From positions 27,323 through 91,322 of the IMG/VR virus record IMGVR_UViG_3300042311_001406: 64,000 bases of DNA, one strand, 5' to 3'. The stretch comes from a virus. A program made the translations under genes and the position numbers. Below the pieces are notes generated by a model. That model worked only from the letters and a program-made list of their open reading frames with translations, did not search any database and had not been told where the DNA came from. Shown here piece by piece: positions 24,173 to 55,897 of the stretch; within the stretch, counting starts at the first letter, position 1, and the number at the start of each line of letters is the position of its first letter.

Positions 24173-24211
24173 CCTCCGTCCCGTCGCTGCTCAGCGTCGA
24201 CAGGGTGGAGG
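24173..24211 (+). promoter_or_regulatory. Hairpin that hides the kinase ribosome-binding site
   Basis: CCTCCGTCC (24173-24181) pairs with GGGTGGAGG (24203-24211, two G-U pairs), continues after one mismatch as GTCG/CGAC, and then TGC/GCG, closing on a 3-nt loop. The right arm contains the Shine-Dalgarno GGAGGA (24207-24212), so the folded form would block translation of the kinase and the coupled RNR. Confidence 0.55.
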
Positions 24212-24218
24212 AAGATGC

Positions 24219-24929
24219 ATGCGGAACAAGTACAGGAAGGATGTCTTCGTCGTTGCCGTGGAAGGCATCATCGGAGCAGGAAAGACCACGCTCACCAAGC
24301 GCTTGCGCGATGAGCTTCATCTGCATGAAGTGCCGGAGCCGGTTGAAGACAACCCGTTCCTCGAAAACTTCTACAAGGACCAAAAGAAGTGGGCCTTCCC
24401 CATGCAGATGTGGATGGTGCAGCGTCGAGCGGAGTCGATTGCTGACGCCGTCGAAAGTCACAAGAACATCATCACGGACCGCAGCCTGGTGGGAGACATG
24501 GTCTTCGCCAAGATGCACAAAGACAACGGAAACATCGACGCCGAGATGTGGCCCGTCTACCGCGACACCTGGAGCATGATGAACCGCTTGCTGGCACCCG
24601 TGCCAGACGTCATCGTCTTCCTGGATGTGAACCCCAGCACCGCGTTCAAACGCATGCACAACCGAGGGAGACAGTCCGAAGTCGACGGCGTCACACTGTC
24701 GTATCTTCAGGATCTCTGTGCCACATACCGCTCCACCATCGAGAAGTTGGGTAGCAACTTCAACGGGACGGAGTCATTCCGTCATACGCGCATCGAATGC
24801 CTCAAAGGAGACACTGATCACGCCGTGATCGTCGACATCGTCAAGCGACACATGGCCAACAAGACCGCCGCTTTCTCGAACGCCGCCGCCGCCAACGAGT
24901 ACAACAACGACAACGAGGTCAAGCTGTGA
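24219..24929 (+). CDS. Deoxynucleoside kinase
   Basis: 236 aa of the dNK/dGK family that phosphorylates deoxynucleosides to monophosphates for phage DNA synthesis. Motifs: P-loop VEGIIGAGKTT (about 12-22), 'EPVEDNPFLENFYKDQKKWAFPMQMWMVQRR' with the substrate-binding Glu and the aromatic/Gln/Arg row, 'TDRSLVGDMVFAKM' (DRS motif), and 'FLDVNPSTAFKRMHNRGRQSE' (lid). ATG 24219 is fixed by GGAGGA at 6-nt spacing. The C-terminus ends in an Ala/Asn-rich tail. The stop overlaps the GTG start of the RNR, so the two are coupled and share the hairpin control. Confidence 0.85.
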   Translation: MRNKYRKDVFVVAVEGIIGAGKTTLTKRLRDELHLHEVPEPVEDNPFLENFYKDQKKWAFPMQMWMVQRRAESIADAVESHKNIITDRSLVGDMVFAKMHKDNGNIDAEMWPVYRDTWSMMNRLLAPVPDVIVFLDVNPSTAFKRMHNRGRQSEVDGVTLSYLQDLCATYRSTIEKLGSNFNGTESFRHTRIECLKGDTDHAVIVDIVKRHMANKTAAFSNAAAANEYNNDNEVKL

Positions 24930-27900
24930 AGAACACCGTCACGATTCCATCCGCCGACTCCATCGACTACACGCTGAGCATTGCCGGCGACAAGATCGAG
25001 TGCAGGGTCCATAGCATCGACATCGTCAACTTCAACAAGCGTGACGTCGCCATCGAAGGCAGCGGCTTCAAGCAGAAGGATGTCGAGGCTCCTGACTTCT
25101 GGAGCGACACGGCCGTCCGCATCGTCGCCAACAAGTATTTCCGCGGCCACGACAGCGATCGCGAGAACAGCGTCAAGCAGCTGGTTGCTCGTGTCGTCGG
25201 CTCAATCGTCGACTTCCTCGACAGCAAGGACCGTTTCGCCAGCGCCACCGACAAGCACAGCTTCAAAAGTGTCCTGACCCATCTGCTCTACGTGCAAGCG
25301 TTCGCGTTCAACAGCCCGGTGTGGTTCAACCTCGGCACCGAAGTCAGCCCGCAGTGCAGCGCTTGCTTCATCCTCGGCGTCGACGACAACATCGAATCCA
25401 TCCTCAAGTGGATCAACGACGAAAGCCTCGTCTTCCGTCGTGGCAGCGGTGCCGGCGTCAACATCTCCCGCATCCGCCACAAGAACGCGCGTCTGCAGGG
25501 CGGCGGCCACGCCAGCGGCCCGCTGAGCTTCGCCAACGGCGCCAACTACATGGCCGGCGCCATCAAGAGCGGCGGCAAGACGCGTCGCGCGGCCAAGATG
25601 CTGGTCATGAACGACAACCACCCCGACGTCTTCGACTTCATCGACACGAAGTCGATTGCCGAGCGCGTCGCCAAGGCGCTGATCGCTGGTGGCTTCAGCT
25701 CGAAGTTCAATGCCGAAGGCGGCGCCTACGAGCTCGCCCCCTGGCAGAACGCCAACAACAGCGTGAGCCTGTACGACCGCTTCCTCAATGCCGTCTTGGT
25801 CGACGGAGACCATGACCTCGTTGACCACAAGGGCGCTGTGGTTCGCACCATCAAGGCTCGCGAGCTGTGGCGCAAGATGGGTGAGGCAGCCTGGGAATCC
25901 GGTGACCCCGGCCTCCACTTCCGTGACACGATGAACCGCTTCAACACGGTCGCAGAAGATGGCGAGATTGAAGCCAGTAACCCGTGCTGCTTCACCGGCG
26001 AGACGCTCGTCGACACCAGCGAAGGAAAGATCCGCATCGACGAACTCGTCGCTCGAAGCCAGCGCGGTGAGGACCTGCCAATGGCATGGGCCTTTGACCT
26101 TGAATCGTCGCTGCCTGTCTTGCGCCGCATCGTCAAAGCCTGGAAGGCCGGCGACGCGACCAAGCTTGTCCGCGTCACGACGGACCGCGGCATCAGTGTG
26201 TTGTGCACACCTGAGCACCGCTGGCTGAAGCGCAATGGCGCTTGGGTGGAGGCTCAGCATCTGAAAGCTGGGGACAGCCTGCGCAAAACGGCGCGCTGGG
26301 TGAACAAGGATCGCTCTGGTCGCCACTGCTTGAACATGCGTGGCACAGAGTCAGCGCCAAACGGAACCGTCTGGCAGAACCGATACATGTGGGAGCAGGC
26401 CTATGGACCAATTCCTGACGGCATGGAAGTTCACCACAAAAACGGAGACCCGACTGACGACCGCCTCAGCAACTTTGAGCTGATCCCTGTCAGCGATCAT
26501 CGCTCTGAACACTCGGCTGGCGACGAGAACCCACGTTTCATTGACGTGGAAGATCATGTGCTTGTGGAGGCGTGGGATGCTGTCGCTGCCGGCAGAAAGC
26601 GTGGTTCCGGTGTGACGCCAACAACATGGAACGCACACATCAACAGCAATGGGCTCAAAGGACATCTGCCGTTGGCTGCATCACCAACGAACGGAGGGCG
26701 AATCCAAGGCATGCCTTGGGCGGAGTTCGAGAGCAAGATCAACGAGCTGCGTTCATCTGTGAACGATCGCGTCGTCAGCGTCGAGTTCATTGCCAACGAC
26801 ACGGCGACATCCGTCTTCGACATCGAAGTTGAAGGCGTGCACAACTTCTCGGTGACCAGCCCCGGCGCTGTTCATTCGGTCGTGGTGCACAACAGCGAGT
26901 ACCTGTTCATCAACAACACCAGCTGCAACCTCGCGAGCTTCAACCTCGTGCGGTACATGATCCGTGACGGTCTCAAGCGCGTGTTCAACTGGCGCGCATT
27001 CCAGCGTGACGGCTTGGCGATGTACCTGTGTCTCGACGCCATCGTCGACATCAGCAGCTACCCGACGCCAGAGATCGACGAGACGACCCGCAAGTACCGC
27101 ACGCTTGGTGCCGGGTACGCCAACATTGGCGGCATGCTGATGCGTATGGGCATTCCGTACGACAGCGACGAAGGCCGTCACATGATCGCCGTCATCACCA
27201 GCGCGCTCCAGGGCACCATGGTCTGCAACAGCATGAAAGCTGCTGAGGCCTGGGGCACATTCGATCGCTACGAAGCGAACCGTGATCACGTCGACAAGGT
27301 GATTCTGTCGCACTACAACGCACAGGTCGGGCTGACCTACAACAAAGACGACGTGGTGTGGAATCCGTGGCAGCACTACGAGCAGACTGTCCTGCGAGAC
27401 AACACGAAGATCGCGCGTGTGCGCAACGCGCAGTTCACGGTCGTGGCGCCCACTGGCACCATCGGCTTCATGATGGACGTCGACACGACGGGCATCGAGC
27501 CAGACTTCAGCCTGGTGAAGTACAAGGAGATGGTTGGCGGCGGCTACATGACGCTGGTCAACACCGCGATGTCCGAAGGCCTCGAAGTGCTGGGCTACGA
27601 TGAGGAGACGCGCAAAGCCATTGAGGCGCACGTCACAACCACTGGCGGTGTCGTCGAAGGCGCTCCCGGTCTGAAGCCAGAGCACTACGGCGTCTTCGAC
27701 TGCGCGGTCGCAGCGTTCGGCGGCACACGCTTCATTCGCCCTGAGGCGCACATTGAGGCCATGGCCGAGGCGCAGCCGTTCCTCAGCGGCGCCATCAGCA
27801 AGACCGTCAACATGCCAGAGTCGTCGACGGTGGATGACATCCTCGACATCTACATGAAGTCGTGGAAGCTGGGTCTCAAAGCTGTTGCCGTCTACCGCGA

Positions 27901-28627
27901 CAACTGCAAGCAGAGCCAGCCGCTCAGCACCTCGAAGACGACGGACAAGGGCAGCGCCACCGTCATCCTTGAGTCGGCTCCAGCGACGTCGATGTCTTAC
28001 GACGACATGACGATCTGCAAGTTGGAAGCGCAGATCAAAGACCTGAAGTCGATCATTGGCAGCCTGCGACGTGGAGAGCGTGAGCGCCTGTCGACGTCGC
28101 ACATGGGCCACATCCACAAATTCACCATTCAGGGGATGAGTGGCCACTTGACGGTCGGCTTCTACGACGATGGCCGCATCGGCGAAGTCTTCGTCGAGAT
28201 GAGCAAGGAAGGCAGCACCGTCGGTGGCTTCCTGGACGCCTGGAGCAAGGCATTCTCGCTCATGCTGCAGTACGGCGCTCCGCTGACTGAAGTCCTGCAG
28301 AAGTTCGAGGGCAGCCGCTTCGAGCCATCTGGCTTCACGCTCAACGAGAACATCCGCACCTGCACATCGGTGATCGACTACGTCAGCCGCTACATGAAGA
28401 TGCTGAGCTCAAGCGCACCGAAGGCGGCTCCGATGCTCGACAGTGCCCCTGGCGACCATCAGGTTGAGGAAGGTGAAGACGTCGACGATTCGCACGTCCC
28501 GTCAAACACGCAGAAGTTCGTCGACACCAATGGTCGCATCTGTTCGTCATGCGGAAGCAGCAACCTGCGTCAAAGCGGCGCCTGCTTCGTTTGCAATGAG
28601 TGTGGCTCAAGCACGGGGTGTGGCTGA
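24926..28627 (+). CDS. nrdJ: Class II (adenosylcobalamin-type) ribonucleotide reductase with intein
   Basis: 1233 aa, of which about 931 form the reductase after removal of a 302-aa intein. Family signatures: 'FAFNSPVWFNLG' and 'QCSACFILGVDDNIESIL' near residues 128-160, 'RGSGAGVNISRIR', 'NPC' joined after splicing to 'SEYLFINNTSCNLASFNL' (catalytic Cys and Glu), 'VAPTGTIGFMMDVDTTGIEP', and a C-terminal zinc-ribbon-like CSSCG...CFVCNECG. This is the single-chain B12-dependent type, needing neither oxygen nor a small subunit. The start is GTG 24926 overlapping the kinase stop, with GAGGTC upstream. It reduces ribonucleotides for replication. It stays inactive until the intein leaves. Confidence 0.9.
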   Translation: MKNTVTIPSADSIDYTLSIAGDKIECRVHSIDIVNFNKRDVAIEGSGFKQKDVEAPDFWSDTAVRIVANKYFRGHDSDRENSVKQLVARVVGSIVDFLDSKDRFASATDKHSFKSVLTHLLYVQAFAFNSPVWFNLGTEVSPQCSACFILGVDDNIESILKWINDESLVFRRGSGAGVNISRIRHKNARLQGGGHASGPLSFANGANYMAGAIKSGGKTRRAAKMLVMNDNHPDVFDFIDTKSIAERVAKALIAGGFSSKFNAEGGAYELAPWQNANNSVSLYDRFLNAVLVDGDHDLVDHKGAVVRTIKARELWRKMGEAAWESGDPGLHFRDTMNRFNTVAEDGEIEASNPCCFTGETLVDTSEGKIRIDELVARSQRGEDLPMAWAFDLESSLPVLRRIVKAWKAGDATKLVRVTTDRGISVLCTPEHRWLKRNGAWVEAQHLKAGDSLRKTARWVNKDRSGRHCLNMRGTESAPNGTVWQNRYMWEQAYGPIPDGMEVHHKNGDPTDDRLSNFELIPVSDHRSEHSAGDENPRFIDVEDHVLVEAWDAVAAGRKRGSGVTPTTWNAHINSNGLKGHLPLAASPTNGGRIQGMPWAEFESKINELRSSVNDRVVSVEFIANDTATSVFDIEVEGVHNFSVTSPGAVHSVVVHNSEYLFINNTSCNLASFNLVRYMIRDGLKRVFNWRAFQRDGLAMYLCLDAIVDISSYPTPEIDETTRKYRTLGAGYANIGGMLMRMGIPYDSDEGRHMIAVITSALQGTMVCNSMKAAEAWGTFDRYEANRDHVDKVILSHYNAQVGLTYNKDDVVWNPWQHYEQTVLRDNTKIARVRNAQFTVVAPTGTIGFMMDVDTTGIEPDFSLVKYKEMVGGGYMTLVNTAMSEGLEVLGYDEETRKAIEAHVTTTGGVVEGAPGLKPEHYGVFDCAVAAFGGTRFIRPEAHIEAMAEAQPFLSGAISKTVNMPESSTVDDILDIYMKSWKLGLKAVAVYRDNCKQSQPLSTSKTTDKGSATVILESAPATSMSYDDMTICKLEAQIKDLKSIIGSLRRGERERLSTSHMGHIHKFTIQGMSGHLTVGFYDDGRIGEVFVEMSKEGSTVGGFLDAWSKAFSLMLQYGAPLTEVLQKFEGSRFEPSGFTLNENIRTCTSVIDYVSRYMKMLSSSAPKAAPMLDSAPGDHQVEEGEDVDDSHVPSNTQKFVDTNGRICSSCGSSNLRQSGACFVCNECGSSTGCG
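25988..26893 (+). mobile_element. HNH-endonuclease intein inserted in the RNR active site
   Basis: Residues 355-656 of the RNR frame. It starts with Cys (CFTGETLVDTSEGKIRIDEL, block A), has block B 'TDRGISVLCTPEHRW', an HNH homing-endonuclease part (QNRYMWEQAYGPIPDGMEVHHKNGDPTDDRLSNFELIP), and ends FDIEVEGVHNFSV...VVVHN before Ser (+1). The insertion is directly after the catalytic Cys of N-P-C-S-E, so any unspliced enzyme is inactive and precise loss restores function. Splicing residues (Cys1, His-Asn, Ser+1) are all present. Confidence 0.9.
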
Positions 28628-31878: not shown

Positions 31879-31895
31879 AAATCTTTGAAGTCAAA

Positions 31896-31920
31896 AGCCA
31901 CCTTCGGGTGGCTCTTTTTT
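31896..31920 (+). terminator. Rho-independent terminator of the replication operon
   Basis: AGCCACC-TTCG-GGTGGCT (31896-31913), a 7-bp stem with a stable UUCG tetraloop, followed by C and a long T-run into 31922. Confidence 0.9.
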
Positions 31921-31940
31921 TTCTTTAGCTTGACTTTTTT

Positions 31941-32004
31941 CTTTGAATAGAAAAATTTTGACCAATAGAAATATCTGCAGAGCCTAAAATATTTCTATTC
32001 AAAG
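31941..32004. repeat. Nested AT-rich inverted repeats
   Basis: CTTTGAATAGAAA (31941-31953) and TTTCTATTCAAAG (31992-32004) are perfect 13-bp arms. Inside, AATAGAAATAT (31964-31974) and ATATTTCTATT (31989-31999) are perfect 11-bp arms. The two pairings compete. ATAGAAA also recurs near 31876, 31947 and 32420. This could be a DNA-unwinding element beside the origin. Confidence 0.7.
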
Positions 32005-32100
32005 TTTCACTTCTTTTAGTTCAGCGATTTCTTTGAGTTCAGGCTCCGCAGTTCAAAGAAGTTGCCGGAATTTATTTGAATCGATAATGTATAGTGAGAA

Positions 32101-32840
32101 AAAAAAGTGACAAACAAAAGTCAGTCACTTTTCCATGTATACAGTTTTGCTGGGAGCGGTTTTCATGGCTTCAGGATGCGGCGGCCAACGACGTCGTCGC
32201 GCAGTGATCGATGCAAATATACTCTGTAGGAAAAACGCGTTAACAAAAGTCAGTCACTTTTTCAGTCACTAGCTGTGAAATCAAGGACTTACGCCCGGAA
32301 TCGGCGCGACCTGAAGCCGCGAACCACTGTCATGATAAAAGTCAGTCACTTCCTTGTAAGTCCTTGTGGCGCCTTCTCTTTTCCCTCTCTTTTTTCCTTT
32401 AGTGACTGAAAATCAGAAAATAGAAACTTTTCGGAGTCGGAGAAAAGCACGGTCGGTCTGCTGGTGCGGCGCACGCGGGAGTGCTGGCCGGTCCCTGGCT
32501 CTGGCGCTGGGCTGGGAAACTTGTTGAATTTCTGAAAAGTCAGTCACTTTTTTAAATTTGCAGCGAATTCCGTTGGCGCCACAAGGACTTACAAGGAAAT
32601 GACGAACTTAAAGTAAGGCACTGGGTCGACGGTTCACGGAAGGTCAACTTCCGGCGTAAGTCCTTGATTTTACAGCTAGTGACTGAAAAAGTGACTGAGA
32701 AGTGACAGAGATGAAATCCTACACAGTAAAGTGAACGAGTGTTCTCGTTTTGACGCCGCGTCCGGAAGCCATCCCACGGCCCCGCGTGCGCACAACAATG
32801 GCCGCAAACCCCCGAAAAAAGTCAGTCACTTTTTTGAGCA
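32101..32840. other. Candidate replication origin: 447-bp dyad with iterons
   Basis: Non-coding and strongly AT-rich compared with flanks. Boxes AGTCAGTCACTT lie at 32119-32130, 32248-32259, 32340-32351, 32538-32549 and 32820-32831. CAGTCACT is at 32263-32270, and AGTGACTG (reverse) at 32401-32408, 32679-32686 and 32690-32697. They sit in a large symmetry: outer arms 32251-32300 and 32649-32697 (48 of 50 positions match), inner arms 32350-32373 and 32575-32598 (24 bp perfect), and boxes 32401-32408 with 32541-32548, all centred on 32474. The centre (about 32440-32520) is GC-rich and not symmetric. It lies next to the primase-helicase gene. Between and around the arms I see no believable gene. 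Confidence 0.7.
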
Positions 32841-32902
32841 GTATATATTTTGGGCAAATTCAGATTCTGGCGTTTTCTTTGAGTTCAGAACGACACGTAA
32901 AA

Positions 32903-34980: not shown

Positions 34981-35024
34981 TGGAGCCCCTTAATGAGCAC
35001 CGGAATGGTTGCTCTTGTTACTAT

Positions 35025-35053
35025 TTTATACCGTGAAATGGAGCCGCTTTTCA
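35025..35053 (-). promoter_or_regulatory. Minus-strand promoter for the Cys-rich lipoprotein
   Basis: Minus strand: TGAAAA (35053-35048), 17 nt ending CACGG, TATAAA (35030-35025), followed by ATAGTAAC. Nearly the same as the promoters at 34303-34331 and 48807-48835. Confidence 0.75.
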
Positions 35054-35093: not shown

Positions 35094-38000
35094 ATGAGCA
35101 TCCAGCACGCGTCCTCGACCTTCGACAGCGTCAAGCGCAACCTCGTGGAACACCTCACGAGCTTGTTCCCTCTGGAGAGCGAGGGTCGAACGTTGCGGCT
35201 CACTGGCCCAATCGTGGTCGATGATCGACTGGCGATGGATGACTACGAGGGGCAGCGCGCGGCTCGTACGGCCGGGAAGTCGTGGACGGTGCCCGTCAAA
35301 GCGCCGTTGGAACTCCTGAAGGGCGACCGGGTCATCGACCGGAAGACGGTCAAGCTGCTCGACCTGCCACGTCTGACCAACCGCGGCTCGTACATCGTTG
35401 GCGGCACCGAATACATGTTCCCAGCCCAGAAGCGCCTGCGCTCTGGCGTCTACGTGCGCACCCGCGGCGACGGCACCACCGAGGCCATGTTCAACCTCAA
35501 GAAGGGCCGCAACTTCTCGGTGGCGATGCACCCGTCGAAAGGGAACTTCGTCATCGAGATCGCGACGACCACGACGCTGCCGCTCTACCCGCTCCTGCGT
35601 GCACTCGGTGTCGAAGACAGCGAGATGGTGAAAGCCTGGGGCCGTGAAGTGTTCACGGCGAACCACATGGTCGAAAGCAGCGACGCCTACAAGAAGGCAC
35701 AGCAGCGCATCTTCGACTTGATCTCGTACAACGATCGTCGGGAAGACGCTCAGGTCCCACAGCCCGCAGACATGAACGCCGCCATCCGTGACAAGATCGG
35801 CGAGTCGTCGTGGGATGGCGACAACGTCGAGCTGACTCTCGGCTTCAAGACCGCGGGTCTCGACGGACCCAGCCTCTTGGCCGCCGCCACGAAGTTGCTC
35901 CAGGTGAACCGCAACGAGGCCAAGGAAGACAACCGTGAGTCGCTGATCCACAGCGACATCGTCGACTTGAGCGACTACATCGTCGAGCGCTACAACGACC
36001 GCCAGTTCCGTGGCCGCCTGCAGCGCCAGCTTGCCCGCATGGTGGGCAATGCCGACACCGTGACCGACGCGATCCCGCGTGACGCTTTCCAGCGCCCTGT
36101 GAACTCGCTGATGACCGAGGCCGCCATCAGCCGCAGCCCGAACCAGGGCAACCCGCTTGGCATTATGAGCGACTACACCGCAGTCACGGTTCGCGGTGAA
36201 GGTGGCATCGAGAGCGACCATGCGCTGACGCGTGGCGTGCGCGCGCTCGACCCCAGCCACCTCGGCTTTCTGGACCCAGCCCACACGCCTGAAGGCGCCC
36301 AGATCGGCACGACCCTGCACTTGGCTGCCGGTACCCGCAAGAAGGGCCGCACCTTGGTGACCGACGTGTGGAACTTCCGCAGCAAGTCTCTCATGGAGGC
36401 GACGCCGATCGACATCCACAAGGGCGTCATCGCGTTCCCCGACTTCTTTGACGTCGTCAGCAAGCGGCTCAAGCCGGTCAATGGGAAGATCAAAGCCATG
36501 AAGGCTGGCGAGATCGTTGAGGTCTTGCCTGCAGAAGTCGACATGGCTTTCACGCTCCCAGAGCAGCTCTTCGACACCAACTCGCTCGCTGTTCCGTTCT
36601 TGAGCCACAACAACGGTGTGCGCTTGATGACGGCTGCCAAGATGGGTGTGCAAAGCAAGACCCTGGTGCACCGCGAGGCGCCCAAGGTGCAGGTGCTGCT
36701 GCCCGACCAGAAGGAGACGCTTGAAGGCGCCATGGGCAAGAGCTTCAGCGTGCAGTCCCCCGTCGATGGCGTCGTCGAAAAGATCGAAGAACAGGCGATC
36801 ATCGTCAGCGGCCAGAAAGTGCCGATGCCGAAATACTTCCCGTTGAACAACGGCAACTACTGGCACGCCAAGCCCAAGGTGAAGGTCGGTGACAAGGTCA
36901 AGAAGGGTCAACTCCTGGCCGACACCAACTTCACCAAAGACGGCGTTCTGGCGCAGGGCACCAACCTGCGCGTCGCCTACGTGCCGTACAAAGGCCTCAA
37001 CTTCGAGGACGGCGTCGTCATCAGCGAAGGGGCGAGCTCGAAGCTGACCAGCGAGCACGTCTACCCGGTCGACTTCGCGTACGACAGCGAGACGGTGATC
37101 AACAAGAAGTCGTTCCAGTCGTACTTTCCGACGACGTTTACCGAAGAGCAGGTCAAGCAGATCGACGATGGCGGTCTGATCACTGTCGGCACAACGCTGA
37201 CCTACGGCATGCCCATGGTGCTGGCGCTCAAGAAGCGGCAGCTCGGCACCGAGGGTGAGCGCCTGGCCTCCATCTCCCGCATGCTGGCCACCGAGTACAG
37301 CGACGCAAGCTTGACGTGGAAGAAGCACGTTGCCGGCGAAGTGCTGGAGATCGTGCACCGCAACAATGAGATCGTCATCCACGTTCGCACCGAGGAGCCG
37401 GCGCGCATCGGCGACAAGATCGTTGGCCGCTACGGCAACAAGGGCGTAATCGTCCACATCATCCCGAACGACCAGATGCCGAAGGATGCTGGTGGCAAGC
37501 CATTGGACTTGCTGCTGAATCCGAATGGCGTCGTCGGCCGCATGAACCTGGGCCAGATTCTGGAGACCACCAGCTCACGTATCTCCGAGAAGACTGGCAA
37601 GCCGTACGTCGCCAGCGGCTTCGGTGGAAATGCCACGGAGCGCGTAACTGCTGAGCTCAAGAAGCTGGGCCTGAAGGATCACGAGACGATTCACGATCCG
37701 ATCGACAACATCGACATCCCCGGCATCCTGGTTGGCAGCCAGTACATCTACAAGCTGGAGCATCAGGCCACCAAGAAGGTGAGCTCGCGCGGTGGCGGCC
37801 CTGAAGCGCTGGAGCACGGCGAGGTCTACACCAGCGAGAACCAGCCGGCGAAGGGTTCTGGCGTCGGCGGACGCGCCATCGGCAGCATGGAGATGTACGC
37901 GCTGTTGGCCCACGGCGCGACGAAGAACATCCACGAGATCTACACGAGCAAGTCGAACTTCGATCCGGAGTTCTGGCGTGCTGTGGTCAGCGGCCTCCCG

Positions 38001-41000
38001 CTCCCGCCGCCGAAGGCAACTTTCAGCAGCGAGAAGTTCGTCACCCTGCTCAAGGGTGCCGGCATCGACGTCCGCATCGACGAAGACATGAAGGAGGCGC
38101 GCTTCGTTCCCTTCCTCGATCGCCAGGTGCTGGCCGCCAGCAACGGCGAGATCAAGAAGTCTGCGGTCATTCGCGACAAGGACGGCGCCGAGATTCCTGG
38201 TGGCCTCTTCGACCTGAAGGCGACGGGTGGCCTCAAGGGCGAGCACTACTCGCACATCACGCTGCCAGAGCCGATGCCGAGCCCGATGTTCAGCAAGGCC
38301 ATCGCAACGCTGCTTGGCATCCGTGAGGACGACATCAGCAGCGTCATCGACGGCAGCATGGAACTCAAGTCTGGTGGCTCTGGTCCGCAGGCGCTCAAGA
38401 AGGCTTTGTCTGCCATCGACGTCGACGCCCGCATCAAGGCGGTCGAGACAGAGATCGTCGGCAAGAAGGCGGCGCAGCTCAACAAGCTGCACCGTGAACT
38501 TCGCTTCCTGAAGGCGCTGAAGTCGACCGGCACCAAGCCGAGCGAGTACATGATCAGCGTGCTGCCGGTCATCCCGCCGAAGTTCCGCCCCATCTACACA
38601 CTGCCTGACGGCGCCATCCGCGTCAGCGACCTGAACTACCACTACCAGGCGCTCCTGCAGCTCAACGAGCAGATTGCTCGCATGAAGGGCAAGCCGGAGT
38701 TCAAGGACGAGTACAAGAAGGCGCTGGGCCAGGTCTACAAGGGCATCAATGGTGTGGCTGGCGTCGACGCTGGCATCGTCGACCGCAAGGGCCAGGACAT
38801 CAAGGGCATCGTCGACACGCTGTCTGGCCAAGGATCGCCGAAGGGCGGCTACGTTCACTCGACGATGCTGAAGCGCCGCCAGGACATGAGCGGCTCGGCT
38901 GTGGCCACCGTGAACCCGAAGCTGGGCCTCGACGAAGTCGGCATCCCGGAAGAGACGGCCTGGAAGATGTTCCGCCCGCTCGTGCAGCGCGAGATGTCCA
39001 TCATGGGCTTCAAGCCGAACGACGCCAAGAAGGACATCGACGACCGCACCCCCGGCGCCCGCCAGGCGTTGGAGAACGTGATGCGCTCGCGCGTCGTCAC
39101 CATCAACCGTGCGCCGTCGCTGCATAAGTTCTCGATCATGGCGTTCAAGCCTCGCCTAACCAAGGGCTACGCCGTCGAGATGAACCCGTTCGTCTTCAAC
39201 GGCTTGAACCTCGACCTCGACGGTGACGTGCTCGGCATGCATGTTCCCGTCAGCGAAGAGGCGAATGCTGAAGCGCACGACATGCTCCCCAGTAAACACC
39301 TGTACAAGCCAGGGAGCGGCGCGCTCATGCCGAAGCTCGGTCAGGAGTACGTTCTGGGTCTCTACCGGATCACGTCGCCTGGCGAGAAGACGACGAAGGT
39401 CTACAGCTCGACGACGGCAGCCATCGCCGACCTCACGGCCCGCAAGATTGCCCCGAATGCCATGGTCAGTGTCCGCGGTCTTGGCGCGACGACGCCAGGC
39501 CGTGTGCTCATCAACAGCGTGCTGCCAGCCGCGGTCCGAGACTACGGCCTCATCTACACGCAGAAGGCGACCAACGCGAAGTTGGAGGAGATCGACAAGA
39601 AGGTCGGCCGTGACGCCTTCAGCAAGGCCCTCAGCGCCATCAGCGACATTGGCCGCCAGTACGCCTACAGCACCGGCGCCAGCTTCCTGTTGAGCGACCT
39701 GCAGGTGATGACCAAGGACCGCAACGACGCGTATCGGATCGCCGATCGCAAGGCCGACGCCATCCGTCTTGGTCCCGGCACTGAGGCTGAGAAGCGCAAG
39801 AAGCTCATCGAGATCTACCAGGCTGTCAGCAACGATCTGACCAACAACATCCACCTCAAGGACAACGACAGCAAAGGTCGCAACAACATCACCGAGATGC
39901 TGACCAGCGGCGCCCGTGGTAGCCCGGAGCAGGCCCGTCAGTTGGTGGCCAACGTCGGCGTCATGCTTGACCACGAGAACCGGCCGATGCCCTTGCCTGT
40001 CCGCGGCACATACACCGAGGGCCTCGACACCGCTGAATACTTCCAGCACATGTACGGAGCCAGAAAGGGCATGATCGACAAGTCGCAGTCGGTTCGTGAC
40101 CCTGGCGCGCTCACGAAGCAGATGGTCGTCTCGGCCACCAGCTTCCGTGTGGCCATGCTCGACTGTGGCACCAAGGGTGGCATCGCTGAGACCACGAAAC
40201 GGAACGATGCGATCGATCGCTATCTGGCTGAAGACATCCCTGGTGTTGCGCGGCACAACGAAGTCGTCACGACGACGGTGCTCAACAAGGCACGGGCCAA
40301 GGGCATTGTCGACATCAAGGTACGCAGCCCGTTGACGTGCCTGGTGCCGCAGGGTGTGTGCGTGCGCTGCTACGGCCTCGATGCTGAGGGGCAGCCGCCA
40401 TCCATCGGTGCTCACGTTGGCGTCGTCGATACCCACGCCATCACGGAGCCCACGACGCAGATGGCGCTCAAGAGCTTCCACACAGGTGGTGTCGCCACCC
40501 AGAAGCAGCAGCTCAGCACCGGGTTCGATCGTGCGGCTCAGTTGTTCGAGATGCCGTCGTCGCTCCGCGGCCACGCCATCGTCGCAGAAGTCCCCGGCGT
40601 GGTTTCTTCCGTCGAGAAGAGTAACTTCGGTGGCTGGTACGTCACGATCGCCAACAACAAGCACCGCATCCCGCACGACCGCGAAGTCATCGTCAAGGTC
40701 GGCGACGTCGTCACACCTGGTCAGGCGCTGACGTCCGGCAGCGTGCGACCGCAGGACACCATGCGTTTGCGTGGTCTGCACGCAGCCCGCATGACCTTGC
40801 GCGACGACATTCGGTCCGTGTTCGCGGAAGGTGGCGTGAACCTGAAGCCGAAGACGATCGAAACGGCTGTGCGCATGCTGACCGACACGGTCCGCATCAT
40901 CAACGCGGGGGATCACCCACACCTTGTCGTCGGCGACCACGCCAGCATGAGCCAGGTGGAGAACTGGAACCGGGAGAACCGCGACAAGCATCAGGTTCGG

Positions 41001-41219
41001 TACGTCAACGAGCTCCCAGGTTCTGAGTTCTTGCCGCACAAGCAAGATGACTGGGCGCACCGGATGGCCCATAATCGCCTGAGCGAAGTGCTGACCACGC
41101 AGGCGCCAATGGCGGGCACCGCCAGCCTGAAGGGTCCCAGCCCGTTTGCGTCACTGTTCCTTGGCCGCCCCATCCCTCTTCCTGTCAGCTCGACGCCGTC
41201 TATCGGCAACAAAGGTTGA
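35094..41219 (+). CDS. Single-chain multisubunit-type RNA polymerase (fused beta-beta')
   Basis: 2041 aa with beta-like (1 to about 960) and beta'-like (about 960-2041) halves in one frame. Beta motifs: 'LDPAHTPEGAQIG' (TPEG at 398), 'NFEDGVVISE' (636), 'GRYGNKG' (778-784), 'LLLNPNGVVGRMNLGQ'. Beta' motifs: 'LPVIPPKFRPI' (1157), 'NRAPSLHKFS', the catalytic triad 'NLDLDGD' with Asp1374/1376/1378, trigger-loop flanks 'SGARGS' (1605) and 'GARKG' (1655), a Cys cluster at 1749/1756/1759, 'EPTTQMALKSFHTGG' (1785). It is shorter than the two E. coli subunits together (about 2750). No alpha, omega or sigma is visible in this window. It presumably transcribes phage genes. The ATG has no Shine-Dalgarno. 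Confidence 0.9.
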   Translation: MSIQHASSTFDSVKRNLVEHLTSLFPLESEGRTLRLTGPIVVDDRLAMDDYEGQRAARTAGKSWTVPVKAPLELLKGDRVIDRKTVKLLDLPRLTNRGSYIVGGTEYMFPAQKRLRSGVYVRTRGDGTTEAMFNLKKGRNFSVAMHPSKGNFVIEIATTTTLPLYPLLRALGVEDSEMVKAWGREVFTANHMVESSDAYKKAQQRIFDLISYNDRREDAQVPQPADMNAAIRDKIGESSWDGDNVELTLGFKTAGLDGPSLLAAATKLLQVNRNEAKEDNRESLIHSDIVDLSDYIVERYNDRQFRGRLQRQLARMVGNADTVTDAIPRDAFQRPVNSLMTEAAISRSPNQGNPLGIMSDYTAVTVRGEGGIESDHALTRGVRALDPSHLGFLDPAHTPEGAQIGTTLHLAAGTRKKGRTLVTDVWNFRSKSLMEATPIDIHKGVIAFPDFFDVVSKRLKPVNGKIKAMKAGEIVEVLPAEVDMAFTLPEQLFDTNSLAVPFLSHNNGVRLMTAAKMGVQSKTLVHREAPKVQVLLPDQKETLEGAMGKSFSVQSPVDGVVEKIEEQAIIVSGQKVPMPKYFPLNNGNYWHAKPKVKVGDKVKKGQLLADTNFTKDGVLAQGTNLRVAYVPYKGLNFEDGVVISEGASSKLTSEHVYPVDFAYDSETVINKKSFQSYFPTTFTEEQVKQIDDGGLITVGTTLTYGMPMVLALKKRQLGTEGERLASISRMLATEYSDASLTWKKHVAGEVLEIVHRNNEIVIHVRTEEPARIGDKIVGRYGNKGVIVHIIPNDQMPKDAGGKPLDLLLNPNGVVGRMNLGQILETTSSRISEKTGKPYVASGFGGNATERVTAELKKLGLKDHETIHDPIDNIDIPGILVGSQYIYKLEHQATKKVSSRGGGPEALEHGEVYTSENQPAKGSGVGGRAIGSMEMYALLAHGATKNIHEIYTSKSNFDPEFWRAVVSGLPLPPPKATFSSEKFVTLLKGAGIDVRIDEDMKEARFVPFLDRQVLAASNGEIKKSAVIRDKDGAEIPGGLFDLKATGGLKGEHYSHITLPEPMPSPMFSKAIATLLGIREDDISSVIDGSMELKSGGSGPQALKKALSAIDVDARIKAVETEIVGKKAAQLNKLHRELRFLKALKSTGTKPSEYMISVLPVIPPKFRPIYTLPDGAIRVSDLNYHYQALLQLNEQIARMKGKPEFKDEYKKALGQVYKGINGVAGVDAGIVDRKGQDIKGIVDTLSGQGSPKGGYVHSTMLKRRQDMSGSAVATVNPKLGLDEVGIPEETAWKMFRPLVQREMSIMGFKPNDAKKDIDDRTPGARQALENVMRSRVVTINRAPSLHKFSIMAFKPRLTKGYAVEMNPFVFNGLNLDLDGDVLGMHVPVSEEANAEAHDMLPSKHLYKPGSGALMPKLGQEYVLGLYRITSPGEKTTKVYSSTTAAIADLTARKIAPNAMVSVRGLGATTPGRVLINSVLPAAVRDYGLIYTQKATNAKLEEIDKKVGRDAFSKALSAISDIGRQYAYSTGASFLLSDLQVMTKDRNDAYRIADRKADAIRLGPGTEAEKRKKLIEIYQAVSNDLTNNIHLKDNDSKGRNNITEMLTSGARGSPEQARQLVANVGVMLDHENRPMPLPVRGTYTEGLDTAEYFQHMYGARKGMIDKSQSVRDPGALTKQMVVSATSFRVAMLDCGTKGGIAETTKRNDAIDRYLAEDIPGVARHNEVVTTTVLNKARAKGIVDIKVRSPLTCLVPQGVCVRCYGLDAEGQPPSIGAHVGVVDTHAITEPTTQMALKSFHTGGVATQKQQLSTGFDRAAQLFEMPSSLRGHAIVAEVPGVVSSVEKSNFGGWYVTIANNKHRIPHDREVIVKVGDVVTPGQALTSGSVRPQDTMRLRGLHAARMTLRDDIRSVFAEGGVNLKPKTIETAVRMLTDTVRIINAGDHPHLVVGDHASMSQVENWNRENRDKHQVRYVNELPGSEFLPHKQDDWAHRMAHNRLSEVLTTQAPMAGTASLKGPSPFASLFLGRPIPLPVSSTPSIGNKG

Positions 41220-42105: not shown

Positions 42106-42942
42106 ATGTCGTTCAACATTGGCGCAGCAATCCTTTCTGGTCTCACCGAGAAGCTGGCGATCAGCGATGCACTTGTGAATCGCTTGGGGTCCGGACGTGC
42201 CAAAAACGTATTCAACGGCAGCGATGCTGATGGAAAGAAACTGTTGCGATCGATTGAGCTCAGTGACGCCAGAGAACTCAGACAGAAACGGAAAGCAGCA
42301 GCACAAGCTGCTGTGATGCATCACGCGCCAACGAAAGTGACTGTCACCACTGCAACCAAGAGCACTGCAGCCGCCGCGAAGGCTCGTGGCTTTCGTGGGC
42401 CATCGCTGAAGCAGATGGGGGTCGGTGCCGGCATCGCCGCAGGCGTTGGTGCGGCGCTCTACGCTCGGCACCGTCGAGAGCGTGAAAAGACGGCAGCCAT
42501 CCCAGCGGCCCGGTTCAAAGAACTCCGCGGCCAGATCGCTGGTCGCCTGGCGCACCGGGTGGACATGGTGAGCAACCGCTTGCTGGATGCACACGGCTCG
42601 GACCTGTTGCGCCTCCGCGCTCAGAAGCGTCGTCTCGGTGGGATGCTGGGCCGTGCGCAGATGCACGAGACGAAGGCTGGGCTCCGAAGTGCTGGCGTGA
42701 ACACCAACGTGCGCAACAGTGCAGCATCGCTGTCGGCTGAGCGCTCCGCGGTGACGGGCTCGACCGCCAATGCCGCCACCAAAATCACCCGTCGTCCGGC
42801 ACCACCTGCAGGCGGCGGCATGGCGAACGATGCCACCAAGGTCGTGAAGACGCCGCCGCTGCCGGCTGCTACAGGTGGAGCTGACCACACGCGCACTGGG
42901 CTCGGGTGGCACCTCCAGAAGCCGAAGGTTCGCGCTGCATGA
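42106..42942 (+). CDS. Virion-type protein with Gly/Ala membrane-like segment
   Basis: 278 aa. The N-terminus includes 'LTEKLAISD', the centre has 'MGVGAGIAAGVGAALYARHRREREKTAAIPAA' (about 105-136: a Gly/Ala-rich hydrophobic stretch followed by basic residues and EKTAA), and the C-terminus is a Pro/Ala/Thr-rich tail. Similar Gly/Ala segments occur in the 21.3, 51.7, 55.9 and 59.1 kb proteins. Probably packaged in the head. The stop overlaps the terminase ATG by 4 nt. Confidence 0.5.
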   Translation: MSFNIGAAILSGLTEKLAISDALVNRLGSGRAKNVFNGSDADGKKLLRSIELSDARELRQKRKAAAQAAVMHHAPTKVTVTTATKSTAAAAKARGFRGPSLKQMGVGAGIAAGVGAALYARHRREREKTAAIPAARFKELRGQIAGRLAHRVDMVSNRLLDAHGSDLLRLRAQKRRLGGMLGRAQMHETKAGLRSAGVNTNVRNSAASLSAERSAVTGSTANAATKITRRPAPPAGGGMANDATKVVKTPPLPAATGGADHTRTGLGWHLQKPKVRAA

Positions 42943-44801
42943 CGCTGCTTGGTCTCCACGACGACGATGATGACGGCGACTCAGGGATCGAGGTGGTGTC
43001 TCGTGCGCCGCTGCGATCTCTGGCTCGCAACTTCGAGTCGAAGGAGAGCCGAGAGCGTTTGCGCGACGCCTTCAACAGGGCGCGTGATGCCGCGGCTGAG
43101 GCCAAGGGTGGCGTGGCTGGCGGCATGTGGGTCGACAAGGACGGCGTGACGTGGACCACGCCGTCCAACATGATCGCCAACCGCATCTACATCAAGCGAG
43201 ACACGCCGTATTCGTTCATCGATCGACCGTGCATGAAGACGGTGTTTGATGATGATCACCGCTTCATTCTGATGAAGACGGCTCGTCAGGTGAGCAAAAG
43301 CACGACGCTGGCTGGCCGTCTGATGCTCAACACCGAGGTCTTGGCGCCGTACGCCGCCCTGTTCCTGAGCCCCAGCTACGACCAGACCTCGAAGTTCAGT
43401 CACCAGCGTCTTGGCCCCACGATCATGCAGAGCCCGCACCTCAAGGCTCGCATGAGCCGAGAGATGCTGAACAACGTCCTGGAGAAAGAGTTCATCGACG
43501 GCAGCCGCATCTATCTGAGCTACGCCAAGAGCGACGCGGATCGCGCACGTGGTATCTCGGTCGACGAAATCGACTTCGATGAGGTGCAGGACATGCACCT
43601 CAGCGCCATCGAGCCGGTCGTCCAGGAGTCGCTGTTCACCAGCGTGCACAAGAAGCGGTTCTACAGCGGCACACCGAAGTCGTTCAGCAACGGCATTGAA
43701 GGGCTGTGGCGCAACAGCGACCAGCGTGAGTGGATGGTGGCCTGCCGTCACCATTCTCCGGCCTATCACCAGAAGTTGACGATCAAGAACATCGGCAACG
43801 AAGGCCCAGTGTGTGTCAAGTGCGGGAACCTGCTCAACACGCTCGACGGCCTCTGGGTGCAGACCGTCACCGTGCTGCCTGACGGGAAGAAGCCAGAGAC
43901 GCACGGCTACCACCTGCCGCAGATCATCTTCCCAACGAACAAGGTCGTTCTCGGGAAGAAGCCGAATGGCAAAGACATCAAGGGCTTCCTGGACTGGGAT
44001 GACCTGCTGCTCCGCCTCTCGAACCCGAACGCTGAGATCGCGACGATTCAGAACGAAATCTTTGGTGAGAGTGCCGACAGCGCCAGCAAACCCATCAGCG
44101 AGGAGAAGCTGCGGTCACTGTGCCACAAAGACCGGCCCATGCCCACGGAGTACCCGGCCTGGGCGCAGGGCACGTACACCTTCGCTGGCGTCGACTGGGG
44201 CATGGGTCTCGGCTCATCGACGGTGCTTTCGATTGGCCAGTTCGACCCTCGCGACCCGTCGAAGTTCCGCATCATCTTCTGCAAGCGATGGGACGGTGGA
44301 GACGCCGACCCAGAAATCTGCGTGCCGTTGATCTTGCAGTATTGCCGCTGGTTCCGCGTCAAGCGCCTGCACGCCGACTGGGGTGGCGGCGCTGGCATCA
44401 ACAGCCGCATCATGGATGAACTCGGCCCAGAGTTCATCACGACGAACTACTGGTCGACGAACATGAGCGCCAAGATGGCGAACTACGACGACCGCCACAA
44501 CCGCTTCGTTTTGAACCGGAGCATGACGATCACGAAGTTCTTCCAAGCGCTGCGTCGAGATTCGATTCAGATCGCCTTCCGATGGGAGGACTACCGTGAG
44601 TTCTCCGTCGACATCCTCAACGTGTTCCGTGAGGAGCGCAAGAACGAGGACTACTACTACGATCACCCGCCAGGCACACAGGATGACGCGATGCACTCGC
44701 ACATCTACTGCTGGCTGGTGGCCTGCTGGCACCGCATCAACGAGAACTTCGTCGAGGACGCTCGTATCACTGGCAGTACGCACAACCCGTTGATGGTGTG
44801 A
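42939..44801 (+). CDS. Terminase large subunit
   Basis: 620 aa. DNA-packaging motor with ATPase and nuclease parts. ATPase: 'MKTARQVSKSTTLAGR' (Walker A, 115-122), 'ISVDEIDFDEVQDM' (Walker B, 206-216), 'YSGTPKSFSNGIEGLW' (coupling motif). A Cys pair 'CVKCGN' lies between. Nuclease (RNase H fold): 'FAGVDWGMG' with Asp419, 'LHADWGGGAG' and 'TQDDAMHS' with Asp582/583. The Walker A has Ser119 where a Gly is usual. The start overlaps the previous stop (ATGA). The frame extends 11 codons upstream without support. A strong hairpin follows, facing a convergent gene cluster. Confidence 0.9.
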   Translation: MTLLGLHDDDDDGDSGIEVVSRAPLRSLARNFESKESRERLRDAFNRARDAAAEAKGGVAGGMWVDKDGVTWTTPSNMIANRIYIKRDTPYSFIDRPCMKTVFDDDHRFILMKTARQVSKSTTLAGRLMLNTEVLAPYAALFLSPSYDQTSKFSHQRLGPTIMQSPHLKARMSREMLNNVLEKEFIDGSRIYLSYAKSDADRARGISVDEIDFDEVQDMHLSAIEPVVQESLFTSVHKKRFYSGTPKSFSNGIEGLWRNSDQREWMVACRHHSPAYHQKLTIKNIGNEGPVCVKCGNLLNTLDGLWVQTVTVLPDGKKPETHGYHLPQIIFPTNKVVLGKKPNGKDIKGFLDWDDLLLRLSNPNAEIATIQNEIFGESADSASKPISEEKLRSLCHKDRPMPTEYPAWAQGTYTFAGVDWGMGLGSSTVLSIGQFDPRDPSKFRIIFCKRWDGGDADPEICVPLILQYCRWFRVKRLHADWGGGAGINSRIMDELGPEFITTNYWSTNMSAKMANYDDRHNRFVLNRSMTITKFFQALRRDSIQIAFRWEDYREFSVDILNVFREERKNEDYYYDHPPGTQDDAMHSHIYCWLVACWHRINENFVEDARITGSTHNPLMV

Positions 44802-48779: not shown

Positions 48780-48804
48780 AGAAACAGATACTTGATCTGT
48801 TTCT
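48780..48804. promoter_or_regulatory. Operator-like palindrome at the transcription start
   Basis: AGAAACAGAT (48780-48789) and ATCTGTTTCT (48795-48804) are perfect 10-bp arms around ACTTG. They lie right after the -10 box of the minus-strand promoter, where a repressor would block initiation. As RNA they form a 5'-leader hairpin. Confidence 0.6.
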
Positions 48805-48806
48805 AT

Positions 48807-48835
48807 TTTATGCCGTGATCTACTGGTGTTTTTTA
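48807..48835 (-). promoter_or_regulatory. Minus-strand early-class promoter
   Basis: Minus strand: TAAAAA (48835-48830), 17 nt ending CACGG, CATAAA (48812-48807), then ATAGAAAC. It shares the CGG[T/C]ATAA.ATAG core with 34303-34331 and 35025-35053. The -35 box overlaps the stop of the 138-aa gene. Confidence 0.7.
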
Positions 48836-49249: not shown

Positions 49250-49440
49250 ACATCCCCCGATTTGAAGCAGGCGCCATCGCCAACATTGGCTTTGAGCTGA
49301 AAGCGTCCGTCACCAAGGTCGTCTGCGTCAACCGCGAAGCCTGCGACGACGACTCTGGTGCGCACTCGACCAAGACGCTGCGACATGTCTGTCATCGTCG
49401 TCTCGTCTTTGGCGGGGCTGTTGCTGCTGATGCTGTTCAT
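49141..49440 (-). CDS. Hypothetical protein coupled to the helicase gene
   Basis: 99 aa from ATG 49440, which overlaps the helicase stop by 4 nt. 'MSQRLGRVRTRVVVAGFAVDADDLGDGRFQLKANVGDGACFKSGDVCVRHEKYGW' looks like a small beta domain with two Cys. The last 30 residues lie over the start of the 138-aa gene and look less protein-like (HSPQPRSPEPEQNHPPRAG). Unrecognised. Confidence 0.45.
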   Translation of the reverse strand: MNSISSNSPAKDETTMTDMSQRLGRVRTRVVVAGFAVDADDLGDGRFQLKANVGDGACFKSGDVCVRHEKYGWMSMMRLIHSPQPRSPEPEQNHPPRAG

Positions 49441-50885
49441 AGTGCTGACACTGCCTCCTGGTTGAGACGGTTCTTCTCTTTTCGCCGATTGACAATCCAC
49501 TCGTCGATGGTTGTTTCTGGCTTGATGATCGGGTGCCAGAAGCGCTTCGGCGCCGTCGCCAGGTACTTCTGCACCAGCAGGTTCCGCTTCTCTGGCGGCA
49601 GGTGTGCATGGCTCTTGAAGCGTTCACCACGGCCCTGCACCTGAACTCCTCTCTCCGGATTCCAGTGGTCCTCCGTCATCTGCAGCAAACGGACGCCCTT
49701 CAGGTCAAGACCTTCACCGCCTGCCGGGGAGATGCCCAGCACCTTGGTGCGACCTTCATTGAAGTCTTTGACGACGGCAGCGCGCTGCTTGTCCGTCATG
49801 CCGCCGCGGAACGTTTTGGAGCCAAGCCCTTGCTCGTTCAGCTTCTTGGTGACTGGCGTGACACCGGCATCCAGGAAGCTGGAGTACACCACGCTCCGGA
49901 AGTGCGGATCGTTCTTGGCCAAGCGATGCTGTTCCTCGATCATCTTCTGCATCTTGGGGCTGGCCGCAACTGGGTCTTTGACGCTGAGGTCATAGTTGGC
50001 TGGCGTGTTACTGATCTGGCGCACGGCGACAGAGAAGGCGTTCATGTTCGCCAAGTCGTTCTTTGATGGCGGCAAGTTGTTCTTGATCTTGCGAGCAAAG
50101 TTCGGGTTCTTCTTGAGGACGTTCTGGTAGAGCGCCCACTGCTGCTTCTGCATGGGGACTCGAACTTCCTGCTCCTGCACCGTCGGGAAGTTGGCGTTGA
50201 ACTTCTCGTCGCCCATGTACCGATGCACGTACGGGCCAATGACCTTGCGGACCCCCTGGGGATCGGTCACGGATTCGATCTTCGGCGCTTCTTTCCTGGT
50301 GAGGAACTCGCCGACGGTTCGACGTCGTTGCGGCACCAGCTTCACATGGCGGCGCACAAAGTCGTTCTCGTCACGGTAGATCTGCTTCCCGCTGACGATG
50401 TTGACCAGCGGCGCAATCTCCTTGGGGTGGTTGTTCACCAGGCTGCCAGTCAAGCCGAGGACGAACGGCATCTGGTGGCGGGTGCGCATCAGGGCACCCT
50501 GGGCCTTGCCAGGATTGCGGGCACGCTGCAGCTCGTCGAGGATGACGGTTTTGGGCCGGATGGAAGCCAGAGCCATCTCTGGGTTCTTCGAGAACTGCTC
50601 GTAGCTCATGACGTGGTAGCGGTTGTGGCGGTCCTCGGTCGTGAAGCGCTTCACGCTGTCGTTGAAGTTGTTGCGGAGGGCGGCGGGGCCAATGACCAGC
50701 GTGTCGCCGCCGCGGTCTTCGGCGACGGCGATAGCGCCTGGTGTCTTGCCGGCGCCCACACGCCAGTTGGCGATCTGCCCAGTGCTGTTCCGAGCTCGCT
50801 CGCGAAGCTCCTCCTGGTGACGCTGCAGCTTGACCTCAGGACGCAATGCGGCCTGTTTCACGATGATCGCGCCAAGGTTCAGCAT
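49437..50885 (-). CDS. SF2/SNF2-like helicase
   Basis: 482 aa. 'WRVGAGKTPGAIAVAE' (motif I, 43-48), 'VILDELQRARN' (motif II, DELQ at 117-120 in place of DEAH/DExx), 'GLTGSLVNN' (motif III), 'VVYSSFLDAGVTPV' (IV), 'GISPAGGEGLDLKGVRLLQMTEDHWNPERGVQVQGRGER' (V and VI with the arginine finger). A compact SNF2-type translocase that may act in recombination, repair or transcription control. It sits in a minus-strand operon with virion-type genes. A start at 50885 overlaps the upstream stop by 1 nt. Confidence 0.85.
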   Translation of the reverse strand: MLNLGAIIVKQAALRPEVKLQRHQEELRERARNSTGQIANWRVGAGKTPGAIAVAEDRGGDTLVIGPAALRNNFNDSVKRFTTEDRHNRYHVMSYEQFSKNPEMALASIRPKTVILDELQRARNPGKAQGALMRTRHQMPFVLGLTGSLVNNHPKEIAPLVNIVSGKQIYRDENDFVRRHVKLVPQRRRTVGEFLTRKEAPKIESVTDPQGVRKVIGPYVHRYMGDEKFNANFPTVQEQEVRVPMQKQQWALYQNVLKKNPNFARKIKNNLPPSKNDLANMNAFSVAVRQISNTPANYDLSVKDPVAASPKMQKMIEEQHRLAKNDPHFRSVVYSSFLDAGVTPVTKKLNEQGLGSKTFRGGMTDKQRAAVVKDFNEGRTKVLGISPAGGEGLDLKGVRLLQMTEDHWNPERGVQVQGRGERFKSHAHLPPEKRNLLVQKYLATAPKRFWHPIIKPETTIDEWIVNRRKEKNRLNQEAVSAL

Positions 50886-51739
50886 TACGACTCCGAATCA
50901 GGAAGGAGATAGGTCTCGGGAACGGTGTCGCTGCGTTCCTGCTCTTGAATCTGCTGCAGAGTGGCGATGGTCTGCGACGGGTACGAGACGCGCGTCATCA
51001 TCTTGGGCAGGTCGCTCTGCTTCTTCTCGATCTTCTTGGCACGCTGCATCTGCGACGACTGCATGGCCATCTTGGCCCAAGTCACAGCGAACTTGTCCTG
51101 ACCAGGCGTGTCGTCGTTGACTGCCTTCATGAACTTCATGTAGCTGGCGACCTGGATGCTTCTGACGATGTCGTCGGTACTGAGTTCACTGTCATCAGGA
51201 AGAATACCGGCTTCCCACGCGGCCGCCGCTGGCTGCTGGGTGATCGGGACGAAGTCGTGCGGGACTTCTCGCTCGATGCGGCCGAGGGTGTAGTAGTTCC
51301 TGAAGTCGATCGACGTGAGCGTCTTTGTGTCCCAGAAGCAGTCTCTGAAGAGTCTGATGGACTCCTCGGTGAGCTTGGCGTTTGCTCGGAGATTGAGGAC
51401 AGTCGCGATGTGGTGCAGAGCCATTCGCTCAATGAGGAAGCGTTCGGCCAATGCTCGAAGCGGCGCCGTTTCCACGATCGAGTAACAACGATCAAGATCT
51501 TCGGAGCCTTGTGCCTCGTCGAAGATCTCCACGTCGCAATGTTGCCGCCACTGAGCGCTCTCCACAGCCCCGTAAGCATTGGTCATCTGGCCTTGGGTGC
51601 AGGTTCTGACGATCTCCTCAAGGTCTTCAAGACGAGGTCGCACAAATCCAAGGTCAGCGACGTGACCTTGGATTTGCTTGGCTGACTCACCTTCAAGAGC
51701 CAGCCAGCGCAGGTACCGGTGATACGGGTAGCGGTTCAC
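50885..51739 (-). CDS. Unknown 284-aa protein
   Basis: Starts at GTG 51739, overlapping the upstream stop (GTGA), with GGAGA at 5 nt. Helical, with 'LRWLALEGESAKQIQGHVADLGFVRPRLEDLEEI' at the N-terminus (could be a small HTH) and 'FAVTWAKMAMQSSQMQRAKKIEKKQSDLPKMMTRV' near the end. It contains 'ALAERFLIERMALHHIATVLNLRANAKLTEESIRLF', a second HTH-like stretch. A small-terminase or regulatory role is conceivable but unproven. Confidence 0.55.
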   Translation of the reverse strand: MNRYPYHRYLRWLALEGESAKQIQGHVADLGFVRPRLEDLEEIVRTCTQGQMTNAYGAVESAQWRQHCDVEIFDEAQGSEDLDRCYSIVETAPLRALAERFLIERMALHHIATVLNLRANAKLTEESIRLFRDCFWDTKTLTSIDFRNYYTLGRIEREVPHDFVPITQQPAAAAWEAGILPDDSELSTDDIVRSIQVASYMKFMKAVNDDTPGQDKFAVTWAKMAMQSSQMQRAKKIEKKQSDLPKMMTRVSYPSQTIATLQQIQEQERSDTVPETYLLPDSES

Positions 51740-55869: not shown

Positions 55870-55897
55870 TGTTCTCTCCGTAACGTCTCGATAGAAT
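55869..55897 (+). promoter_or_regulatory. Promoter of the head gene cluster
   Basis: TTGTTC (55869-55874), 17 nt, TAGAAT (55892-55897), then a 30-nt leader with AAGGACA before ATG 55928. Divergent to the minus-strand spike operon, so this 58-nt gap drives both. Confidence 0.45.

Follow-up and report, generated by a model that had tools for sequence, protein, structure and literature searches.

A plus-strand open reading frame of 2041 residues in a viral contig raises the question whether the two large subunits of a bacterial-type RNA polymerase (RNAP), β and β′, are encoded here as one working chain and, if so, with which partners such an enzyme would act. The window analysed is a stretch of 64,000 nucleotides, corresponding to bases 27323–91322 of a linear, 91,322-base IMG/VR record (IMGVR_UViG_3300042311_001406, hereafter G000) that is perhaps incomplete; positions refer to the window unless G000 is named. 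The reading that we favour, at a probability of roughly 0.7, is a one-chain core free of α and ω which, together with a phage-encoded σ factor, transcribes phage genes. Its activity and timing are inferred, without any experiment, whereas the integrity of the sequence, the predicted fold, the catalytic residues, their conservation in a family, the co-occurrence of a σ gene and the absence of detectable α and ω genes are direct observations.

Both large subunits in one reading frame

The frame (35094–41219, plus strand) starts with ATG and contains no internal stop. Pfam domains of β occupy its first half (Rpb2_3, residues 351–412; Rpb2_6, 589–904, E 1e-44; Rpb2_7, 925–955) and are followed, in order, by the β′ domains Rpb1_1, Rpb1_2 (1327–1397, E 5e-22), Rpb1_4 and Rpb1_5 (1643–1811, E 1e-24), and a PDB sequence search matched the protein to bacterial β′ chains with E down to 2e-104. 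AlphaFold (AF2) models were obtained for two overlapping pieces and not for the full chain. The model of residues 1–1000 (pLDDT 85, pTM 0.80) aligns with the cyanobacterial β subunit 9dvs_C (VIA-align Z 34.4, 846 residues aligned, rmsd 4.2), residues 1–894 matching well and residues 895–956 being of low confidence in that model; the model of residues 895–2041 (pLDDT 88, pTM 0.87) superposes on bacterial β′ with a Z of about 31 and an rmsd of 3.2 Å over 1028 residues. The first-pass annotation of this DNA, made from the letters alone, had proposed homologues of β and β′ in a single 2041-residue frame without a stop; the frame itself, the ordered Pfam domains and the models of both halves, which superpose on the two bacterial subunits, bear this out. 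The junction, which had been expected near residue 960, has to be moved. Indeed, the β′ match starts at residue 102–104 of the second model, that is residue 996–998 of the full chain, and structural match and residue alignment together place the junction at residues ~985–998 (38046–38087, plus strand), between a β-like half (residues 1–985; 35094–38048) and a β′-like half (residues 999–2041; 38088–41216). The connection is direct, without an extra domain, β′ starting at about residue 998 immediately behind the C-terminal segment of β, and the segment 954–1018 measures 63–79 residues across the 132 relatives described below.

The possibility that an assembly or sequencing error, such as a frameshift, joined two genes had been raised together with the original proposal, and can be ruled out for all practical purposes. 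The same fusion recurs in 132 distinct, independent contigs, and the GC content at third codon positions, taken in blocks of 500 codons, stays at 0.82–0.87 throughout codons 1–2000 and thus gives no hint of two frames having been joined. Domains, structure models and the 132 complete relatives all speak for a bacterial-type β–β′ fusion in one chain. The chain is a bacterial-type two-barrel RNAP whose membership of the superfamily is not in doubt, yet it does not correspond to the standard five-subunit bacterial core. The earlier estimate that it is about 700 residues shorter than β plus β′ holds arithmetically for E. coli; against bacteria of the B. subtilis kind (~1193 + 1199 residues) the deficit is only about 350. 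One real loss within this deficit is the N-terminal zinc finger of β′, missing in 132 of 132 relatives, in which the corresponding segment has 20–28 residues as opposed to 53–55 in bacteria.

Residue alignment, with E. coli numbering mapped through a Salmonella sequence, reveals that the chain keeps E813, D814, K1065, K1073, R1106 and H1237 of β and R425, D460, D462, D464, R780 and H936 of β′, as well as the four cysteines of the second zinc site. On the plus strand, the pair E638 D639 (β E813 D814) lies at 37005–37010, the stretch from K775 to K783 with the active-site lysines (β K1065 and K1073) at 37416–37442, the motif NLDLDGD (residues 1372–1378) with the catalytic Mg2+ triad D1374/D1376/D1378 at 39207–39227, and the trigger-loop region with H1796 (β′ H936) at 40446–40493. 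None of K775, K783, R816, R1339, D1374, D1378, R1657 and H1796 varies among the 132 relatives, and D1376 is kept in 129 of them, most of these proteins having NADFDGD at the place of NLDLDGD. The three catalytic aspartates originally pointed out are thus present, and a loss of the metal site, which would have spoken against the whole proposal, is not seen. Likewise, the cluster of three cysteines reported there exists (C1749, C1756 and C1759; 40338–40370, plus strand), though the count was incomplete: C1691 (40164–40166, plus strand) completes the four-cysteine site. In the window protein, every one of the rifampicin-pocket residues Q513, F514, D516, H526, R529, S531, L533, N568 and I572 is changed, from which resistance to rifampicin is predicted.

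A family of single-chain polymerases

Alignment-based scans of IMG/VR recovered at least 524 related stretches; a peptide-pattern search based on the single protein, the patterns of which are poorly conserved, had found no relatives. Among the phage loci kept, after removal of duplicates, there are 132 distinct complete single chains of 1993–3006 residues with overall identities of ~30–40%. The window RNAP therefore belongs to a large phage family and is not a singleton. Its closest relatives are encoded by IMGVR_UViG_3300042691_053387 (55–56% identity) and 3300006851_000007 (43%), and the family includes the named Vibrio phages D69, D148 and D181 and Salmonella phage Arash. Many tblastn matches labelled as phage (Enterococcus, Staphylococcus and Listeria records) look like contamination with host rpoB/rpoC, which is an inference. 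In 25 of the loci kept the chain is cut after residue ~1460 with the β/β′ junction still joined, and a few further chains are cut near residues 504, 740–800 or 1095. Breaks near the junction (960 and 986) were found only in one locus, which is fragmented into six pieces, apparently through poor sequence quality. As the proteins from which the search started were fused ones, relatives with separate β and β′ may be under-sampled.

In a tree calculated from 1982 columns of concatenated β and β′ (LG+G4, short search, midpoint rooting, no archaea, natural rpoB–rpoC fusions of Helicobacter and Wolbachia left out), the 58 sequences of the family group together, separated from those of 26 bacteria (SH-aLRT 100) and likewise from the polymerases of Cobetia phage Carin-5 and Yersinia phage GN1. 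The split-chain members fall into a single clade (99), with a single-chain member as their closest neighbour (98), and the single chain is accordingly, on a provisional basis, the simplest ancestral state within the family. With the reservation that the rooting lacks archaea, this suggests that fusion and splitting of RNAP subunits went both ways in phages.

Nineteen of the 132 complete chains exceed 2300 residues owing to intein-like inserts of 257–512 residues (L031, L032, L042, L072, L214, L276, L300, L327 and others). The insert sites include TPE/G (400), the lysine region K775–788, the loop of the catalytic aspartates (1377/1378) and the histidine of the trigger loop (1796). Many inserts begin with C or S and end with GN or HN, and the two that were scanned match a LAGLIDADG model. 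In L210 (5260–12324) and L235 the RNAP chain is broken near residues 740–800, in the lysine region that serves as an insert site in other relatives; the second ORF of L210 is ~290 residues longer than expected, which makes a split or damaged intein possible.

Partners of the core and rival readings

The absence of a σ gene noted in the first-pass annotation proves to be a window-edge effect, as an ORF of 281 residues at G000 24174–25019 (L107:10674–11516), 2.3–3.1 kb to the left of the window and 37 kb from the RNAP gene, encodes what by its sequence appears to be a divergent σ70-like protein. It matches the Pfam model Sigma70_r3 with 27.9 bits for a cut-off of 25.3, and the Pfam models of σ regions 2 and 4 gave no match in G000. 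A profile built from 16 homologues can be aligned with SigA over a span reaching from region 2 to region 4, and the 60 PDB matches listed for it are σ factors only (best E 2e-17). Twenty ORFs were fetched, one being that of G000 itself and the other 19 matching its protein at E 3e-13 to 6e-30. For region 2 of σ70, 10 of 13 split-chain records give a score above the cut-off, as do a minority of the single-chain ones. Among the 37 single-chain records, G000 included, in which region 2 does not pass, region 3 is matched at E ≤ 0.01 in 32, and above the curated cut-off in 18. When either a region-2 score above the cut-off or a region-3 match at E ≤ 0.01 is accepted, a σ70-family match, in some cases a region-3 match below the curated cut-off, is present in 41 of 46 single-chain records (91–210 kb), leaving out G045, in which the chain is broken near residue 777, and G033, a record of 19 kb. 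In two records of single-chain phages, L108 and L356, the σ gene is adjoined by an ORF that by eye resembles DNA polymerase I/3′–5′ exonuclease.

The residues R275, R278 and E295 (E. coli), on which σ region 2 docks, do not vary among the 26 bacteria aligned, but are replaced by L, Q and A in the window chain and mostly hydrophobic or variable across the phage family. A host σ is therefore unlikely to fit, and we infer that the phage σ docks instead. The models for α (PF01000) and ω (PF01192) found no match in 27 records of the family, among them those of G000, D69 and Arash, although they were positive in 13/14 and 14/14 control genomes, respectively. This agrees with the initial remark that no α or ω gene is seen in the window; given that G000 may be incomplete, the absence remains provisional.

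In the mechanism that we propose, the protein would be a complete, catalytically competent DNA-dependent RNAP of a tailed phage with β and β′ in one polypeptide. The fusion would hold the two halves together, such that the α dimer and ω might be dispensable for assembly, and the divergent σ70 would dock on the core in place of the host σ and choose the promoters. The pair is presumed to transcribe phage genes independently of the host RNAP, possibly aided by an SNF2-family helicase (49437–50885, minus strand) that is conserved beside the RNAP gene in the family. A RapA-like role of such a helicase has been proposed for jumbo phages (PMC7824862); by analogy, the conserved helicase may act like bacterial RapA, as a possible helper in RNAP recycling.

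The same chain could alternatively be packaged in the virion and ejected with the DNA to transcribe early genes, like the phiKZ vRNAP or the crAss-like enzyme, a use that would not preclude a σ factor. A portal-annotated protein family, named after the Arash annotation, lies upstream of the RNAP gene in 84 family loci (median ~0.8 kb), which is no more than suggestive, and one chain without α could be imagined to suit passage through the tail. In the window, however, minus-strand ORFs rather than a portal gene precede the RNAP gene, the σ found in most records fits a polymerase synthesised inside the cell, and packaging cannot be deduced from a gene neighbourhood, so that we consider a virion enzyme unlikely. 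Use of host α, ω or σ by the core after infection has in its favour the bacterial-type fold and the clamp helices and flap region, which residue alignment finds in the window chain; the replacement of R275, R278 and E295, the deletion of the N-terminal zinc finger in all 132 relatives and the presence of a phage σ count against it and make it improbable.

The divergence of the rifampicin pocket and of the σ-docking residues, as well as the departure of NLDLDGD from NADFDGD, might even be taken as signs of an inactive or repurposed RNAP-like protein, for instance a host-factor decoy or a structural protein. This is hard to reconcile with catalytic residues that are invariant, or nearly so, in both halves of 132 relatives sharing only ~30–40% identity, and the intein-like inserts at active-site motifs can be understood as fitting strong functional constraint; we hold such a protein to be very improbable. 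Returning to the core with its presumed own σ, this combination is found in dozens of related phages and looks like a widespread and remarkably simple form of a universal enzyme. Whether it represents a widespread lineage of two-component machines, each a single-chain core with a private σ and neither α nor ω, with the one-chain form ancestral, is in our judgement evenly balanced. Should a core with one σ and without α and ω be confirmed, it would be the simplest σ-dependent enzyme of the cellular RNAP superfamily. Should the pair work alone, the assembly of β with β′, the need for α and ω and the role of the N-terminal β′ zinc finger would become directly testable, with handles for experiments in the intein-like inserts located within active-site motifs and in the divergent rifampicin pocket.

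Known polymerases and the surroundings of the gene

The polymerases of D69, D148, D181 and Arash belong to the same family, being ~30% identical along most of the chain, and have β fused to the first part of β′ as in the window chain and a σ gene ~8–10 kb upstream. Unlike in the window, β′ is cut after the catalytic barrel and its C-terminal part (~606–609 residues) is a separate gene; the sister clade including D69 and Arash is never cut cleanly at the β/β′ junction. This split site recalls that of the phiKZ-like enzymes, which also share with the window family the absence of α and ω (PMC7598289). Whereas the phiKZ-like vRNAP and nvRNAP consist of 4–5 separate polypeptides without a recognised σ, the window encodes one chain and its genome a σ70 homologue. 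In crAss-like phages β and β′ are likewise found in one chain; according to PMC7481178, no similarity of that chain to the COG0085/COG0086 models can be recognised, in contrast to the strong Pfam matches (E down to 1e-44) of the window chain.

The same paper describes the mReC, RNAP-encoding Caudovirales drawn partly from IMG/VR (Weinheimer & Aylward 2020, PMC7481178), as having a bacterial-type RNAP that is readily alignable to those of cells and forms a separate clade; NADxDGD was required for inclusion, and β and β′ are reported with no mention, in the text examined, of a fusion in mReC or of σ. A clade apart from cellular RNAP is also true of the window family (SH-aLRT 100, tree without archaea). 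The NLDLDGD of the window fails the NADxDGD rule, whereas most of the 132 relatives (NADFDGD) would pass it, and many may thus sit in the mReC set with their fusion unremarked. The named mReC representative contigs are absent among the loci kept from our IMG/VR scans, and an overlap of the two sets is likely but unproven.

Carin-5 and GN1 also encode bacterial-like β and β′, with an annotated σ gene just upstream in Carin-5; unlike in the window, the two subunits are separate genes, in the order β′ then β, and fall in a separate clade. The natural rpoB–rpoC fusions of Helicobacter and Wolbachia join β to β′ in one chain as in the window, but are cellular enzymes of genomes that encode α. A literature search, which left many journals uncovered, brought up no paper describing a phage RNAP of the bacterial type that is fused and has a σ of its own. 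It is this combination that seems to be new, bacterial-type phage RNAPs (mReC) and the very divergent crAss-like single chain being known.

Downstream of the RNAP gene, the terminase large subunit (42906–44801, plus strand) provides the phage context. Two minus-strand genes encode proteins without assigned function: one of 790 residues (51736–54108; family 2, 55 loci), which in relatives lies just downstream of RNAP, and one of 335 residues (55087–56094; family 3, 47 loci), which directly follows RNAP in many of them. A σ70 consensus scan gave 7 sites for 3.4 expected. The sequence TATTTTATRCCGTGA is found at 35022–35036, ~70 bases ahead of the RNAP gene, and again at 48804–48818; with two copies only, it is a weak lead to a phage promoter or operator. 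Over-represented intergenic 8-mers were discarded as promoter candidates because they coincide with a repeat cluster at 31880–32900 that is more like an iteron-type origin. This noncoding cluster, which adjoins a primase-helicase gene, comprises nine copies of CAGTCACT on both strands, mostly within AAAGTCAGTCACTTTT-like stretches, together with TTTCTATT repeats, and is possibly an iteron-type replication origin. To the left of it, the ribonucleotide reductase large subunit (24926–28627, 1233 residues) has HNH endonuclease matches in its interior (residues ~431–536), probably reflecting a mobile insert.
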